Positions 1-5,855 of a stretch of 64,000 nt of DNA are shown here, one piece after another. Both the position numbers and the translations under genes were made by a program. The DNA is from Rhodocyclaceae bacterium. GTDB lineage: Bacteria > Pseudomonadota > Gammaproteobacteria > Burkholderiales > Rhodocyclaceae. The stretch lies in contig NKXK01000027.1 of the NCBI GenBank assembly GCA_004379165.1, forward strand, positions 1 to 64,000. The letters run 5' to 3'. The notes under the pieces are model-generated. The model was not told the DNA's origin. It saw nothing but the letters and a program-made list of their open reading frames with translations, and made no database searches. The stretch's first letter is position 1. Every line of letters begins with the position of its first letter.

Positions 1-2106
1 GTCCAGCGCTAGCGGGACATTTTCGGTATCGCGCAACTCGCTGTCCGGCTCGTACTCGATGAACTCGCCGGTCGGTGTCGCCATGTAGCCATAGTCGCCA
101 AGCTTGTCGCGGGTGGTGCCCAGTTGGTTCAGCAAGTCATTCAGCTTGGCTGCATTGAGCTTGTGGACCTTCTTGATTACCCTCTCGGCCCGTTCGTCAC
201 GCCAGCTGATCGCGTTGAGGATTTGCTTGCGGGCGGGTGCGGCCAGCTTCAAGCCCAGCGCCTTGAGGGCATCATCGACAATGCCCTCAAAGCGGTTGAA
301 GTCGAGGAATTCGCCGCTACCGATTTTCTCAGCCAGTTGCTGTGCGGCCTGCATGATGTCGCGTTGCTCGCGCCATGTCGCCTCAGACAGCAGTTCCTTG
401 CGGTTCTTGGGTGAAAGAGCGATCTCTTCGCGCTCAAGGTGCGCCTCGATGGCTTCGACATGCGCCTTCAGGCCGGTGTAAACCTCGTCGCCGTACTTGC
501 CGTACACCCACTCCATGGTGTCCTGCATGCCCGGCGTGAAACGCAGGGTAGCGATGCGCTCGCGACTGAATTGGACTGCCAGTCGCAGCGGGCGTTCCAC
601 CGTGACCTTGTAGTAGCCGAAATCACGGTTGTTGAAGACTTTGGAAATGCTGTCATTCGGCATTTCCAAGTACAGCTGGGTGATTTGGTGGATGTGGTCG
701 TCGGTGAATTCGCAGTTCTTCTCACCGAGGTTTTTGCGCAGCTTCTGGTACAGGTTGCTGGCGTCGATCAACTGCACCTTGCCTTTACGCTGGTCGGCCT
801 TGTTGTTTGACAGAACCCAGACGTAGGTGGTGATGCCGGTGTTGTAGAACAGGTTGTTCGGCAGCTGGATGATGGCTTCCAGATAGTCATTCTCGATGAT
901 GTGGCGGCGGATGTTGCTCTCGCCGCTGCCCGCATCCCCGGTGAACAGAGCGGATCCGTTGTGGACGGAAGCGATGCGCGAGCCCATCGGGCTGTCGCCG
1001 CGTCGCTTCATCTTGTTGACCATCTCCATCATGAACAGGAGTTGGCCGTCAGAGGAACGCGGGACCGCCGGGTAGAAGTCGAAAATATCTCCGGTGTAGT
1101 CGGACAGATTGACCTGGAAGCGATGGTCGATCACGTCCTTACCGTCGACAATGCTCTTCTGGTCGCTCTTCCAGCTCTTGCCGTAGGGCGGGTTCGTCAG
1201 CATGAAGTCGAAGCGCGTGCCCGAGAAATCGTCGGTCGCCAGCGTGGAGCCAAACTTGATGTTTTCAGGGTCGTTGCCCTTGATCATCATGTCGGACTTG
1301 CAGATGGCGTAGGTCTCCGGGTTCACTTCCTTGCCGTAGAGGAACACACCGACGTTAGCCTTGATTTCGCCCTCAGGATCGATGACGAATTTCTGAGACT
1401 CGGTCAGCATGCCTCCGCTGCCGCAGGCCGGGTCGTAGATGGTCAGTGGGTTGGGAAGCTGATCCTTGACCGGGATGAAGACCAGATTGGTCATGAGCTT
1501 GATCACTTCACGGGGCGTGAAGTGCTCACCGGCCTCTTCGTTGTTTTCTTCGTTGAACTTGCGAATCAGTTCCTCGAAGACGTACCCCATGCCCAAATTG
1601 GACAGCCCCGGCTGGTTGCGCCCATCCGGACCTTTCCGATCGTTGGGGCTGAGGTTGATCTCGTCTGACACAAACTTCTCGATCACGTCGTGCAGCACGT
1701 CTGACTGCGCCATCTTGCGGATCTGGTTACGCAGGTCGAACTTCTCGACGATCTCCTTCACGTTGTCGGAGAAGCCATCGAGGTAGTTCTTCAGGTTGGC
1801 TTCCAGCTGGGACGGGTTGCCCAGCAGCGACTTCAGGGTGAAGCGGGAGGTGTTGTAGAACACGTAGGCTGATGCCTCGCGCAGGCCATGCGGGTCAAGA
1901 TCGGCCATTTCCGCATCTTCGCGCTGGAAACGGACCTCTTCAAGCACCGCTTCCTTGGTGGGCTCCAGCAGGCAGTCCAGGCGACGTAGGACGAACATTG
2001 GCAGGATGACATCGCGGTACTTGCCGCGCACGAAAACATCCCTGAGGCAGTCGTCAGCGATTGACCAGATGAAGCTGACGATCTTGTTATGTACTGAGTA
2101 ATCCAT
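1..2106 (-). CDS. hsdM: Type I restriction-modification methylase subunit HsdM (3' end outside window)
   Basis: Adenine-N6 DNA methyltransferase subunit of a type I restriction-modification system. The open frame runs from an ATG at 2106 to the window edge without a stop (702 codons seen). The SAM-binding motif DPACGSGG begins at residue 225 and the catalytic motif NPPYG at residue 305, both intact. The N-terminal region resembles the HsdM N-terminal bundle, with the typical stretch GEHFTPREVIKLM before motif I, and a long helical C-terminal part follows residue 500. The start lies 11 bp after the stop of the upstream methylase/specificity gene, so the two are probably co-transcribed. No HsdR is visible; it would have to lie beyond position 1. 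The family call is secure from the motifs; recognition sequence and restriction activity cannot be inferred. Confidence 0.93.
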   Translation of the reverse strand, partial: MDYSVHNKIVSFIWSIADDCLRDVFVRGKYRDVILPMFVLRRLDCLLEPTKEAVLEEVRFQREDAEMADLDPHGLREASAYVFYNTSRFTLKSLLGNPSQLEANLKNYLDGFSDNVKEIVEKFDLRNQIRKMAQSDVLHDVIEKFVSDEINLSPNDRKGPDGRNQPGLSNLGMGYVFEELIRKFNEENNEEAGEHFTPREVIKLMTNLVFIPVKDQLPNPLTIYDPACGSGGMLTESQKFVIDPEGEIKANVGVFLYGKEVNPETYAICKSDMMIKGNDPENIKFGSTLATDDFSGTRFDFMLTNPPYGKSWKSDQKSIVDGKDVIDHRFQVNLSDYTGDIFDFYPAVPRSSDGQLLFMMEMVNKMKRRGDSPMGSRIASVHNGSALFTGDAGSGESNIRRHIIENDYLEAIIQLPNNLFYNTGITTYVWVLSNNKADQRKGKVQLIDASNLYQKLRKNLGEKNCEFTDDHIHQITQLYLEMPNDSISKVFNNRDFGYYKVTVERPLRLAVQFSRERIATLRFTPGMQDTMEWVYGKYGDEVYTGLKAHVEAIEAHLEREEIALSPKNRKELLSEATWREQRDIMQAAQQLAEKIGSGEFLDFNRFEGIVDDALKALGLKLAAPARKQILNAISWRDERAERVIKKVHKLNAAKLNDLLNQLGTTRDKLGDYGYMATPTGEFIEYEPDSELRDTENVPLALD

Positions 2107-2117
2107 ATTTTTCTTCT

Positions 2118-3896
2118 TTAAATTGTCCAGATTGCATTGCTGAGTTTGCGTTGCTCGTCACGAGAGCTCGCAACAAGCCGCTCGATTTCAACGATCTTTT
2201 CAAACGCCTCGATCGTCTTTTCTTGCTCAAGTCGATCTGGAACGGGAATCCTGATCTTTTCCAGTTCCCGGAGCTGAATCAGCGGAACCGAAGCCCCCGA
2301 GACAATCTGCTTGAGAAGGGCTTGGCCTATTTCCGACTTTAGGAAACTGAAAAGAACACGGGGGTCGATGATACCTTTGTCATCAACTCGAAGCACTAGG
2401 CATGACTGTCCTACAACCCATCCAGCGCTCACGCCGACATCGATTTCAGGCGGAAAAATCGCCACCTTCCCTACGCTTCCTTTGATCGTGATGGCGATAT
2501 CGAAAGGACGTAGGAACTGTTTACGTCCTTTAGCAAGAGCAGCCTCGGTGATGAATACTTGGCGACCAGGTATCTGAGCGTAGCCATATTCTGGGAAGTC
2601 GGCAGGCCCGACTTCCTGTACAGAGATTCCCTCATCGCTACTGGAAATCGGTAGCGGACGCACAATGCTAACCAACTCAACCAAGGCACGATTGGGGAAT
2701 TTGGCGAGCAATGCTTCCACCGCCTCGCCGTCAGAGGATTTGCAGTAGCGATTTACCTGAAGCTGAGCATCGTTACCAAGGACATCCTCGACTGAAATGA
2801 TCCTGGATATGTCGTTTTCAATGCGAGAGAGTACAAGGTCAGCAATTTGCTCCCACGCGGTCAAGACCGCACGCCCCCGGCCATCCTTCTTAAACAGGGC
2901 ATCGTTGGCGCCATCAACAAACACGATCTCATCGCTCGCGTTTTCTCGATTCAGAATTAGCAACGAGAAAGCCAACGCCGTGTTCGGCAGTAACGCGGCA
3001 GGTAATGCGACAACTGCTTCAATCTGCTTCTTCGCCAGCAAATCTTCACGCAGTGATCGTTCCGCACCGGGACTGAACAGCAAACCGTTGGGTACAGCCA
3101 CAACCGCCCGTCCTTTAGTACGGGCAAGGATGTGGCGTACCGCCAGTACCGCGATGGACGCGGTTTGCTCCGGAAAACGCCCGAACAGATCCCGTTCAGC
3201 AAGCATCGGGTCATACTTCACCCCGAAAGGCGGGAAGCCCAGGCTGATATCGAATTGCGTCAGCCTGCCTTCCTCTAGGAAGCCCGGACGCTCCAGACTA
3301 TCGCCCACGTAAACACTTGCTGACGTATCCGAAAGCAGATTAACCAACCAAGGAAACGGCCAAGCCATCTTGGTTTCAGAAAAGGTCGCGGCACTGAGCG
3401 TCTGAACCACTGCTGTCAGTTGAAAACTTTGCTCGAAGGGTAGATATACCTTCATGGAAGGTTCTACACGGGCAAGCTTAGCCATCAGGCCAGTCAGCTC
3501 GTTAGGCAGACTCGCAAACGATTTACCCGCCGCACTGCTCATCGCAGCCGTCAGGTTATCGGTAGCCCACGGCAAGTCCAAATTGGCATCAGCTAACAGT
3601 TCTAGCGCTTGGAGCACTTGCCCCGGCGACAAATGCTGAAGGGCTGGGCTGACGTACACGAAGGCACTACTGTCAGGCCCTAGCGCCTCTGAACTCCCGA
3701 TCTGGTTGAAGATGGAAACCAGATGTTTGGCATCCCTCGGAGGTTCGACAGGATTAAAAGCCAGCCCGCCCGTTAGACGCCCACGCTTGGAGACCCGTAC
3801 CCACGCCAAGAGTTGCAAGGCGACTGGATAGAACTCATCCGGCAACATATTCCCGCGCAGGAGTTGAGCCAGCTGGTGAATTAATTTTTCGTACAT
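2118..3896 (-). CDS. Degenerate N6-methylase fused to HsdS-like specificity domain
   Basis: A 592-residue protein that looks like an HsdM core joined to one HsdS target-recognition half. At the position expected for SAM motif I (about residues 150-158) the sequence reads VYLPFEQSF instead of DPxxGSG, and the catalytic NPPY is replaced by GFPPFG at residues 220-225, so methyl transfer by this chain is unlikely. The downstream methylase-fold segment (VVALPAALLPNTALAFSLLIL) is conserved. From about residue 400 on the sequence resembles a type I specificity domain, ending in a helix (LEQEKTIEAFEKIVEIERL) like the HsdS spacer helices. It probably supplies DNA recognition to the intact HsdM encoded next. 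The start ATG at 3896 is preceded by AAAGGGG overlapping the stop of the DUF4258 gene, which suggests translational coupling. Base composition looks less GC-rich than the flanking chromosome. Confidence 0.82.
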   Translation of the reverse strand: MYEKLIHQLAQLLRGNMLPDEFYPVALQLLAWVRVSKRGRLTGGLAFNPVEPPRDAKHLVSIFNQIGSSEALGPDSSAFVYVSPALQHLSPGQVLQALELLADANLDLPWATDNLTAAMSSAAGKSFASLPNELTGLMAKLARVEPSMKVYLPFEQSFQLTAVVQTLSAATFSETKMAWPFPWLVNLLSDTSASVYVGDSLERPGFLEEGRLTQFDISLGFPPFGVKYDPMLAERDLFGRFPEQTASIAVLAVRHILARTKGRAVVAVPNGLLFSPGAERSLREDLLAKKQIEAVVALPAALLPNTALAFSLLILNRENASDEIVFVDGANDALFKKDGRGRAVLTAWEQIADLVLSRIENDISRIISVEDVLGNDAQLQVNRYCKSSDGEAVEALLAKFPNRALVELVSIVRPLPISSSDEGISVQEVGPADFPEYGYAQIPGRQVFITEAALAKGRKQFLRPFDIAITIKGSVGKVAIFPPEIDVGVSAGWVVGQSCLVLRVDDKGIIDPRVLFSFLKSEIGQALLKQIVSGASVPLIQLRELEKIRIPVPDRLEQEKTIEAFEKIVEIERLVASSRDEQRKLSNAIWTI

Positions 3897-3907
3897 GGCT
3901 TACCCCT

Positions 3908-4162
3908 TTAGTGCTTCGACTGGTAGTTGTAAGTCGTCAGTATGGCGTTATCGGCCTCGACGACCACACATCCGCCTTTGTCCAAAATTTTCTTAGCGGT
4001 GCGCAGCTTCTCCTCCAATTCACGGATCAGCTGCTGTGCGTGCTTCTTGTCCAGGATGGCCTTGTCTTGCTCAACTTCGCCGAACTCCAGAACCAGATCG
4101 ATCATCGAGCGGGTAATCCCGCGTTGCGTCATTCGTTGGTGTGCATGTCGAGTGAATTGCAT
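3908..4162 (-). CDS. DUF4258 family small protein, first gene of the restriction-modification operon
   Basis: An 84-residue protein starting MQFTRHAHQRMTQRGIT, the characteristic opening of DUF4258 proteins, which have a RelE/ParE-like small fold. The reading frame extends upstream to 4246, but the predicted promoter puts the transcript start near 4180, and GGAGG lies five bases before the ATG at 4162, so 4162 is chosen. The centre of the protein is charged and helical (QLIRELEEKLRTAKKILDKG), and the C-terminus (CVVVEADNAILTTYNY) matches the DUF4258 end strand. It is the leader gene of a three-gene operon with the fused methylase/specificity protein and HsdM. A toxin, a regulator or an accessory restriction subunit are all possible; the sequence alone does not decide. 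Confidence 0.75.
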   Translation of the reverse strand: MQFTRHAHQRMTQRGITRSMIDLVLEFGEVEQDKAILDKKHAQQLIRELEEKLRTAKKILDKGGCVVVEADNAILTTYNYQSKH

Positions 4163-4187: not shown

Positions 4188-4216
4188 ACTATAGACACAC
4201 GACAAACCCATGTCAA
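4188..4216 (-). promoter_or_regulatory. Near-consensus sigma-70 promoter of the restriction-modification operon
   Basis: On the minus strand TTGACA (4216-4211) and TATAGT (4193-4188) are separated by exactly 17 bp. The transcript would begin around 4180, leaving a leader of about 18 nt that carries the GGAGG ribosome site for the ATG at 4162. The sequence between the boxes contains GACA and TGTC half-repeats that could bind a regulator, but this is weak. Confidence 0.75.
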
Positions 4217-4433
4217 GGTACTGCGTACTATTTTTTTATTTACCAAACCGTAATGCCTGATTAGGTAGCTGAAGGATCATATTCACCCATTCAAAATCCA
4301 TGCACTTCAGACCTCGCTAAATGTTCCGCTGACTGGCACGGCAACTCATAGAGACCAACGGGTTTGAGCGGCATAAAGTTCTGCCTATCAAACTCATCAG
4401 CCGATTAATACGCATAGTTTCTGCCCAACAAAC
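4217..4433. other. Intergenic stretch with no recognised gene
   Basis: Between the restriction-modification promoter and the terminator hairpin before amtB this AT-richer stretch shows no ORF of convincing length, no tRNA fold and no insertion-sequence ends. It probably marks the boundary of the acquired island. Confidence 0.5.
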
Positions 4434-4460
4434 AAAAGCCCCGCACAAGGCGGGGCTTTT
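4434..4460. terminator. Bidirectional rho-independent terminator
   Basis: A perfect 11-bp stem (AAAAGCCCCGC / GCGGGGCTTTT) with a five-base loop ACAAG. The arms carry A and T runs on both sides, so it can end transcription in either direction. It lies beyond the amtB stop (4525) on the minus strand and upstream of the restriction-modification operon, insulating the two. Confidence 0.9.
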
Positions 4461-4469
4461 TCAATTTCG

Positions 4470-4505
4470 TCCGACAGACTTTATTACACTCCGACAGACT
4501 TTATT
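4470..4505 (+). repeat. Two tandem 16-bp direct repeats
   Basis: TCCGACAGACTTTATT occurs at 4470-4485 and again at 4490-4505, a 20-bp period with four bases between copies. It lies between the amtB stop and the terminator hairpin. Two copies only; not a CRISPR array. Confidence 0.8.
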
Positions 4506-4524
4506 TATTACGATCACAATCAAC

Positions 4525-5727
4525 TTACCAGCTCGGCTCGCGCTCCGGCGTCGCGGTAATGCGGTGGATCGAGAGGTCGGCCCCTTCGTATTCTTCCTCC
4601 TGATCCAGGCGCAACCCCAGCGTCATTTTCAGTACGCCATAGACCAAGGCACCACCTGCAAGGGCGATGGCAACGGCCATCAACGTCATGATGAGCTGCG
4701 GCATGAAGGCGATGCCACCGGCGCCACCCAGCGCCGTGCTGCCGAAGATTCCGGCAGCGATACCGCCCCAGGCGCCACACAAGCCATGCAGCGGCCAGAC
4801 ACCGAGGACATCGTCGATCTTCCAGCGATTCTGCGTCAGCGTGAACATGACCACAAACAGGGCACCAGCCACGCCACCGACAACCAGCGCACCAATCGGG
4901 TGCATCAGATCAGAACCGGCGCAGACGGCAACCAGACCGGCCAACGGACCGTTATGCACGAAGCCCGGGTCGTTCTTGCCAAGCACCAGCGCGACGAGCG
5001 TGCCGCCGACCATTGCCATCAGGGAGTTGAGGGCGACGAGGCCGGAGATTTTGTCCAGCGTCTGGGCGCTCATGACATTGAAGCCGAACCAGCCGACGGT
5101 CAGAATCCAGGCACCCAGGGCGAGGAAGGGTATCGAGGACGGCGGGTGGGCAGAAATGCGTCCATCTTTACTGTAGCGACCATAGCGCGCCCCGAGGAGC
5201 AGCACCGCAGGCAGCGCGATCCAGCCGCCCATCGCATGTACAACCACGGAGCCGGCAAAGTCGTGGAACTCCTCACCGTAAGTCGCTTTCAGCCAGGACT
5301 GAACACCGAAATGCTGATTCCAGGCAATACCCTCAAAGAAGGGGTAAATGAAGCCGACGATCAGGAAGGTCGCCATCAACTGCGGATTGAATTTGGCGCG
5401 CTCGGCGATACCGCCGGAGATGATCGCCGGGATGGCTGCAGCAAAAGTAAGCAGGAAGAAGAACTTGGTGAGCTCATAGCCGTTCTTCGCCAGCAGGGTA
5501 TCGACGCCGGAGAAGAAATTGACACCGTAGGCAATGCTGTAGCCAATGAAGAAGTAGGCAATGGTCGATACGCCGAAGTCGGTCAGGATCTTGACCAGTG
5601 CATTGACCTGGTTCTTCTTGCGCACCGTGCCAACCTCAAGGAAGGCAAAGCCCGCGTGCATGGCCAGCACCATGATGGCGCCAAGGAGAATGAACAGCAC
5701 ATTGCTGCCGTTTTGGTACGCTTCCAT
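4525..5727 (-). CDS. amtB: Ammonium transporter AmtB
   Basis: Inner-membrane ammonium channel of 400 residues with about eleven hydrophobic segments. The pore twin histidines are visible at H164 (SVVVHAMGG) and H314 (WPLHGLCGAWGG), and the conserved aspartate of HDFAGS is D157. The frame opens at 5781, but the predicted sigma-54 promoter places the transcript start near 5750, and the ATG at 5727 (MEAYQNGSN) has GGGGG upstream, so 5727 is used. No glnK gene, the usual partner, is adjacent: the neighbour upstream is mltA. The C-terminal tail after residue 370 is hydrophilic, as expected for the cytoplasmic region contacted by PII proteins. Expression is expected under nitrogen limitation, given the NtrC-like sites upstream. 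Confidence 0.96.
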   Translation of the reverse strand: MEAYQNGSNVLFILLGAIMVLAMHAGFAFLEVGTVRKKNQVNALVKILTDFGVSTIAYFFIGYSIAYGVNFFSGVDTLLAKNGYELTKFFFLLTFAAAIPAIISGGIAERAKFNPQLMATFLIVGFIYPFFEGIAWNQHFGVQSWLKATYGEEFHDFAGSVVVHAMGGWIALPAVLLLGARYGRYSKDGRISAHPPSSIPFLALGAWILTVGWFGFNVMSAQTLDKISGLVALNSLMAMVGGTLVALVLGKNDPGFVHNGPLAGLVAVCAGSDLMHPIGALVVGGVAGALFVVMFTLTQNRWKIDDVLGVWPLHGLCGAWGGIAAGIFGSTALGGAGGIAFMPQLIMTLMAVAIALAGGALVYGVLKMTLGLRLDQEEEYEGADLSIHRITATPEREPSW

Positions 5728-5759
5728 GAAACCCCCGAAAAAATAATCCGGGAGGCTAA

Positions 5760-5775
5760 AGCAAGCACCATTCCA
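5760..5775 (-). promoter_or_regulatory. Predicted sigma-54 promoter of amtB
   Basis: The minus strand reads TGGAATGGTGCTTGCT, which fits the -24/-12 pattern TGG-N10-TGC with the GG and GC dinucleotides at the correct ten-base spacing. Transcription would start near 5750, 20-25 nt before the amtB ATG. Confidence 0.7.
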
Positions 5776-5855
5776 GTGCATGAATCTTGTTTCAAATCAG
5801 TGCATTGCTTTTCGCATAGCAGATCAAAATGCACCAAAACAATTCATATTTTTCT

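Follow-up and report, generated by a model that had tools for sequence, protein, structure and literature searches.

A minus-strand operon at the start of contig NKXK01000027.1 from a Rhodocyclaceae bacterium encodes, behind a small DUF4258 gene, a 592-residue protein in which a dead methylase of the type I restriction-modification (RM) kind is fused to half of a specificity subunit (here called M/S). The whole stretch analysed, hereafter the window, has 64,000 nucleotides; positions are numbered over its full length, and its base 1 is base 1 of contig C21 in genome G000. We put at about even the chance that M/S is a pseudo-enzyme that binds DNA as a homodimer and controls the operon in which it is encoded. 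It is read as an autogenous regulator because of the published layout of half-specificity fusions, the lost methylation motifs and the geometry of an 11-bp promoter site, GTA-N5-TAC. Little is known of how a cell safely turns on a type I restriction operon, and RptR, described in the accessible part of PMC12255303, is the sole dedicated type I repressor that we met in the open-licence literature.

Read along the minus strand, the locus runs from a sigma-70-like promoter (4188-4216; TTGACA at 4216-4211, 17 bp, TATAGT at 4193-4188, by a scripted consensus match) through the DUF4258 leader gene (3908-4162, 84 aa; Pfam PF14076, E 4.8e-8) and the M/S gene (2118-3896) to hsdM, which follows after 11 bases and runs off the contig end (1-2106, 702 aa up to that point; the Azospira homologue has 783 aa and is 95% identical). 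The putative operator GTACGCAGTAC, of the form GTA-N5-TAC, occupies 4218-4228 on the same strand, one base upstream of the -35 box. Coordinates and Pfam matches bear out an earlier preliminary description of the window, which had placed these three genes here and had called HsdM intact: it carries DPACGSGG and NPPYG and matches N6_Mtase (E 6.8e-60) and HsdM_N (E 3.4e-25). M/S contains one N6_Mtase stretch (PF02384, residues 193-389, E 3.3e-24) and one Methylase_S stretch (PF01420, residues 466-570, E 7.8e-7), the latter within residues 400-592 (2121-2699), which comprise one HsdS-like recognition domain and the C-terminal region and are also recognised through the HsdS structures 5ybb and 3okg of the Protein Data Bank (PDB). 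Its C-terminus is thus an HsdS-like half, as had been described, and not a two-domain HsdS. Upstream, visual inspection of 4430-4505 showed AATAAAGTCTGTCGGA twice in direct orientation and a hairpin resembling a terminator, which separate a gene at 4525-5781 from the DUF4258-M/S module.

Both methylation motifs of M/S are lost, again in agreement with that description. When nine M/S were aligned with nine neighbouring HsdM by hhalign (probability 99.7, with similarity over most of the catalytic domain), the S-adenosylmethionine (SAM) motif I of M/S, VYLPFEQSF (residues 150-158, 3423-3449), stood opposite IYDPACGSGGMLTES with a gap of seven columns between VYLP and FEQSF, so the glycine loop is absent. 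Motif IV, FPPFG (residues 221-225, 3222-3236), stood opposite NPPYG, the catalytic Asn of NPPY/F being gone; the family alignment supports both assignments. By the N6_Mtase profile M/S belongs with HsdM, and by motif I and NPPY/F it does not.

The same loss was found throughout the family. Our main set of 15 loci consists of the window, the orthologues in Azospira and Rhodocyclus (the two returned by a scan of genome collections) and twelve distinct plasmid loci found by tblastn among the matches listed: Oscillatoria, Aromatoleum, Sulfuricurvum, Synechococcus (three records, 100% alike in M/S), Geminocystis, Cyanobacterium, Annamia, Aliivibrio, Roseomonas, Roseovarius, Salimicrobium and Lactococcus (five records). 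Three more fusions, from genome G1165, L. amylovorus and Subdoligranulum, were counted for the motif only and bring the half-specificity fusions examined to 18, spanning four phyla. As 40 of 1070 records were listed for one plasmid search, the family has at least 18 members and may have more. The pattern [NDS]PP[YFW] is kept in none of the 18, against 56 of 58 HsdM control frames taken from loci fetched in relatives and in class-level genome scans, and relatives with a working NPPY, which would have told against the preliminary description, were thus not seen. The motif-I glycine loop is unmatched in 13 of the main 15. The others are Salimicrobium and Lactococcus, with altered loops (DGTAGVG and DATAGTA) and NFPF and VPPF as motif IV; L. 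amylovorus has DPSSGINGA and FPPI, and the Subdoligranulum protein, an unannotated plasmid frame (L114 4371-6146), has a glycine-rich motif I, VCCGSGT, and DYPF. From these retained or altered forms the Firmicutes members appear less decayed. A Klebsiella candidate (H23) was rejected as a plain M gene.

The gene is under purifying selection. The ratio of nonsynonymous to synonymous substitution rates (dN/dS) is 0.05-0.12 in comparisons of window, Azospira and Rhodocyclus, and each of three segments of the gene gave a low value; the ratios are rough in both Rhodocyclus comparisons, where synonymous sites are near saturation. Together with the motif count this argues that the loss is not chance decay. 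M/S is a single open frame in 13 of the main loci; in Roseomonas and Roseovarius it consists of two open reading frames (ORFs) with a 4-base overlap, the division falling on the lost motif IV or right beside it, for which a sequencing frameshift is possible but less likely, given two cases at the same place. In a tree of M/S and HsdM (82 rows) the M/S need two label changes and a single clade is not rejected (p-AU 0.55), so a single origin of the dead proteins is possible, although long branches make it uncertain.

In five of the 15 main loci the promoter upstream of DUF4258 has a palindromic word, GTACGNCGTAC, which we read as GTA-N5-TAC. It is perfect in Azospira and Rhodocyclus (both GTACGACGTAC) and in Aromatoleum (GTACGCCGTAC), and has one mismatch in the window and in Oscillatoria (GTACGTCCTAC); as both mismatches fall within the middle five bases, half-sites GTA and TAC around N5 are suggested, post hoc. 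Aromatoleum has two copies around the -35 box, the second behind it and nearer the start. The first copy of each locus ends 50-59 bp before the DUF4258 start codon, and the position of the word varies (beside -35, between -35 and -10, behind -10), which would suit a repressor more than an activator. Compared with dinucleotide shuffles, the word gave p 0.002 in Aromatoleum and 0.0005 in Oscillatoria, a result that is supportive of an operator, short of conclusive. The word appears to follow M/S and not DUF4258: recognition domains of the other word-bearing loci are 97, 83, 48 and 47% identical to that of the window, those of the other ten loci at most 41%, and an Aeromonas promoter lacks the word although its DUF4258 is closer to the window's (52% identical) than those of Oscillatoria and Aromatoleum (44-45%). 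Sulfuricurvum has TTATGGCGTAA just ahead of -35, with three mismatches (p 0.20). In Oscillatoria a long imperfect palindrome with 25-bp arms surrounds the word just before DUF4258 (L037 9255-9309). In Lactococcus AACTTAGTATTTCAAATACTAAGTT, located 25 bp ahead of the M/S start (L089 7387-7411; shuffle p 0.002), is a perfect 12-1-12 palindrome and a possible operator of that M/S.

We also tested palindromes in general, taking the best one in 110 bp against 500 shuffles irrespective of position (lowest attainable p 0.002). Oscillatoria, Aromatoleum and Lactococcus reached 0.002; Roseovarius, Aeromonas, Aliivibrio and Roseomonas lay between 0.01 and 0.05 and the other ten above 0.09.

Several observations weigh against autogenous repression by M/S. 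The palindromes of the window, Azospira and Rhodocyclus are unremarkable on their own (p 0.95, 0.52 and 0.12). The p-values of the word are optimistic, since it was picked after inspecting regions that included Aromatoleum and Oscillatoria, among 17 scanned (G1165, L. amylovorus and Subdoligranulum lay outside the scan), and it is absent from ten of the 15 main loci, those with more distant recognition domains. A site beside -35 could also suit an activator. Palindromes precede some DUF4258 genes that have no M/S (Aeromonas, A. towneri and others), and sites of this kind may thus be read by a different protein. The region upstream of the Oscillatoria restriction operon lacks the word, which leaves control of that operon by the site unsupported. 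In addition, the Subdoligranulum member is less clearly dead and possibly less decayed, and a structure model of M/S from three sequences was unusable (mean predicted local distance difference test score, pLDDT, 33.7).

In type I enzymes HsdS has two recognition domains spaced by helices, and a dimer of half-HsdS rebuilds this shape and reads a palindrome. The half-HsdS dimer EcoR124INT reads GAAN7TTC (PMC3320862, accessible part), and in the available portion of PMC6158711 an engineered HsdM-half-HsdS fusion dimerises and methylates ACCN5GGT, and the authors liken half-HsdS dimers to homodimeric regulators such as BmrR. For M/S we infer that it dimerises, that it binds the operator and that it represses instead of activating; what DUF4258 contributes is inferred as well. 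M/S would derive from a type I modification enzyme, as a dead HsdM core with half an HsdS; two copies would pair through HsdS-type helices and the dimer would read GTA-N5-TAC through its two recognition domains, binding without methylating, as it has neither the SAM loop nor the catalytic Asn. Sitting on its own promoter, it would repress DUF4258, M/S and then hsdM-hsdS-hsdR where present, an autogenous controller with a role comparable to that of type II C proteins or RptR.

The part of DUF4258 bears on the alternative that survives best, although we consider it unlikely: a guard resembling a toxin-antitoxin pair, in which DUF4258 would be a BECR-fold toxin and dead M/S both its antitoxin and a DNA-binding autorepressor, the pair addicting the cell to the restriction operon or acting as a second line when that operon is attacked. 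PMC11980606 lists DUF4258 among the toxin families with a BECR fold (RelE/ParE superfamily) whose activity is unknown, and T4, H6, R10, R14, G15, G28 and K62-G64 are invariant across 11 aligned sequences. The same subfamily stands before other partner genes on small Aeromonas and Acinetobacter plasmids, before viperin genes (Moraxella, A. towneri) and before a GIY-YIG gene (Azospirillum). Two of these plasmids, from Moraxella (L099 3001-5061) and Acinetobacter (L103 5001-7026), have the order DUF4258, LRAT-like or hypothetical protein, viperin, and there DUF4258 looks like the leader of viperin defence operons. Against a guard, a profile search with DUF4258 matched no solved toxin structure, and its own model had low confidence (pLDDT 63.6) and was not used for a fold search. 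Moreover DUF4258 lies directly before M/S in nine of the 15 loci (in some annotated as hypothetical and recognised by tblastn and alignment) and neither annotation nor tblastn gave one in the other six; that it leads the operon, as first described, is therefore often so but not general. DUF4258 is perhaps an effector or toxin under M/S control, its level set by the same feedback, and what we know of it may fit a plain controller or a guard.

The preliminary description had seen M/S differently, as a replacement for HsdS in an asymmetric enzyme. In its broader form this makes M/S a structural subunit that joins HsdM, with or without HsdS, in an asymmetric complex for modification or restriction that would have a second specificity, itself bipartite; we regard this as improbable. 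Points in its favour are that M/S still resembles HsdM through most of the catalytic domain, that it has a recognition half and that hsdM is close by in nine of the 15 loci; PacII, moreover, is an enzyme with two different M subunits. The operons of the relatives speak against it. Azospira sp. I13 (M/S 96% identical to the window's, DUF4258 identical) has DUF4258, M/S, HsdM (783 aa), HsdS (433 aa, two Methylase_S stretches), an HsdR-like protein (984 aa, HSDR_N and SWI2_SNF2) and three more genes. Rhodocyclus tenuis (79% and 86%) has DUF4258, M/S, HsdM (827 aa), HsdS (421 aa, two Methylase_S stretches), two smaller genes, an HsdR-like protein (1034 aa, HSDR_N) and a YgjP/SprT-like metallopeptidase. 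With a separate two-domain HsdS in both, the dead fusion is extra and does not replace the specificity subunit; its recognition domain has at most weak similarity to the HsdS of the same locus (seven loci compared). The standard HsdS in these operons counts against the first interpretation. At position 1, left of which hsdR was to be sought, the contig ends; Azospira and Rhodocyclus have HsdR-like genes, and a search of the window's own genome found no hsdS or hsdR close to those of Azospira. Contig C26 of that genome holds remnants of a second type I system (L111 1406-3956): a Y-family-polymerase-like fragment (by eye) runs into the last 57 hsdS codons, followed by an hsdR 64% identical to Azospira HsdR over residues 428-966 and missing most of 40-427.

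Nor is the trio of DUF4258, M/S and HsdM conserved as a unit. Between Azospira and Rhodocyclus M/S is 79% identical, whereas HsdM is 26% identical over 356 aligned residues. Measured per 100 bases, DNA similarity between the two loci goes up at the operator, from 31-46% to 58-86%, and drops to 26-55% at the M/S stop codon, so promoter, DUF4258 and M/S form a unit placed before differing type I operons. Type I genes adjoin M/S in ten of the 15 loci. They lie directly behind it in the window, Azospira, Rhodocyclus, Aromatoleum (a helicase with weak HSDR_N, M and S), Sulfuricurvum, Roseovarius and Lactococcus, as well as in L. amylovorus (M, S and a helicase gene), and behind one intervening 151-aa gene in Salimicrobium; annotated S and R also follow in Sulfuricurvum, Salimicrobium and Lactococcus, and in Roseomonas, where M is not annotated. 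M/S is thus near the head of an RM operon in nine loci, L. amylovorus included and Roseomonas left aside, as expected of an autogenous controller, and not in Oscillatoria, where the DUF4258-M/S pair lies behind the restriction operon. The stretches read from Synechococcus, Geminocystis, Cyanobacterium, Annamia and Aliivibrio (five of 15) have no annotated type I operon; a DNA methyltransferase gene is near the Cyanobacterium locus and the Annamia genes are mostly unnamed. The observation first made is thus confirmed and its interpretation only partly supported. Two further cases were also seen. G1165 has a lone, divergent M/S near efflux-pump-like genes (L108 10878-12524, minus strand), with no type I genes recognised by eye within 18 kb, and in G1106 (L107 6587-9175) a C-terminal M/S piece is joined in frame to helicase-like sequence, apparently what a deletion has left of an M/S-helicase gene pair like that of Aromatoleum.

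M/S genes without an annotated type I operon nearby would also suit a decoy or reader that binds a class of sites genome-wide or on phage DNA, with an architectural, anti-restriction or methylation-sensing function and the operator as one site of many; the adenines of the half-sites could be marked by a methylase. We give this a small chance: the window's genome shows no excess of the word (5 matches per strand, the reversed control pattern having 8), and the copies conserved across lineages sit at the promoter. Viral contigs searched with protein P0001 and the Oscillatoria protein gave no relative, and an operator plus -35 pattern on one viral contig was taken as chance, lying inside a 193-aa ORF (L096 1363-1944). 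A decaying pseudogene or annotation artefact, to which the lost motifs and the helicase-fused remnant of G1106 might point, is contradicted by the selection test, the open frames and the wide distribution, and can practically be dismissed.

The family is rare in the sampled genomes. Among 199 relatives, 369 class genomes and 399 order genomes, G000 itself had the sole close full-length copy; an M/S profile run on the 369 class genomes (at most three candidates per genome) scored an HsdM best beyond G000, with 154 bits against 888, and thus gave no further member at this depth. A DUF4258 profile matched four times in 398 phylum genomes, and the three matches besides G000 had no M/S in ORF lists inspected by eye. 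Returning to M/S as a regulator of its own operon, we suggest tentatively, at slightly less than even chance, that dead M/half-S dimers form a regulator class with a swappable recognition domain and a matching palindromic operator, travelling across several phyla as promoter modules, often with a DUF4258 effector, ahead of unrelated type I operons and other genes, and controlling or guarding type I systems. If so, a regulator made from a restriction system's own parts would be a counterpart of the dead nuclease used as a repressor, and recognition domain and operator might be linked by a readable, swappable code. It would also explain proteins labelled 'subunit M/S' or 'N-6 DNA methylase' in databases, and methylome predictions made from M/S genes would be wrong. 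We found no published description of dead M/S regulators in the open-licence literature; the likelier view is that a mobile controller of this origin combines known parts in a role that the literature searched does not describe for them.

Type II C proteins are cI-like helix-turn-helix proteins, and in this they are unlike M/S. What they would share with it is autogenous transcriptional control of an RM operon (PMC12255303, accessible part). RptR comes nearer in position, since according to the same portion of that source it heads a type I operon, within a type I RM-DarTG island, and represses its own promoter through short palindromic sites; it is, however, a 79-aa all-helical protein that binds TAGCTA and is not an RM subunit. 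The non-canonical PacII-type M1M2S enzymes combine two distinct M proteins in a single type I system, but in the accessible part of PMC9613975 both methylate, with NPPF and NPPY, and share one S, whereas M/S lacks both motifs and so does not provide a second competent M. In type IIG enzymes, as in M/S, the same chain has both a methylase and just one recognition domain; as far as the available text of PMC6158711 goes, type IIB and IIG enzymes have a nuclease and an active methylase, neither of which is seen in M/S. The PDB entries 8VSQ and 8VSR ('Esub1'), for which no paper was found, are a solved relative of the half-specificity domain (about 200 aa, E about 3e-13 against the family profile) without the methylase part, and may be relevant earlier work. 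RefSeq names some homologues 'type I restriction-modification system subunit M/S', among them the full-length WP_015211643.1 (37% identical, with DUF4258 upstream); this is a name only, and the literature found describes no function, dead motifs or operator for it. The M-S fusion of G043 (L094, 838 aa) is natural too, but was rejected as a family member for its two Methylase_S stretches and intact NPPF. Closest in layout is the engineered CC398-1 fusion (PMC6158711, accessible part), an HsdM with one recognition half that dimerises on an 11-bp palindrome with an N5 spacer; that fusion is engineered and active, whereas M/S is natural and dead and stands beside a normal HsdM and HsdS in its relatives.

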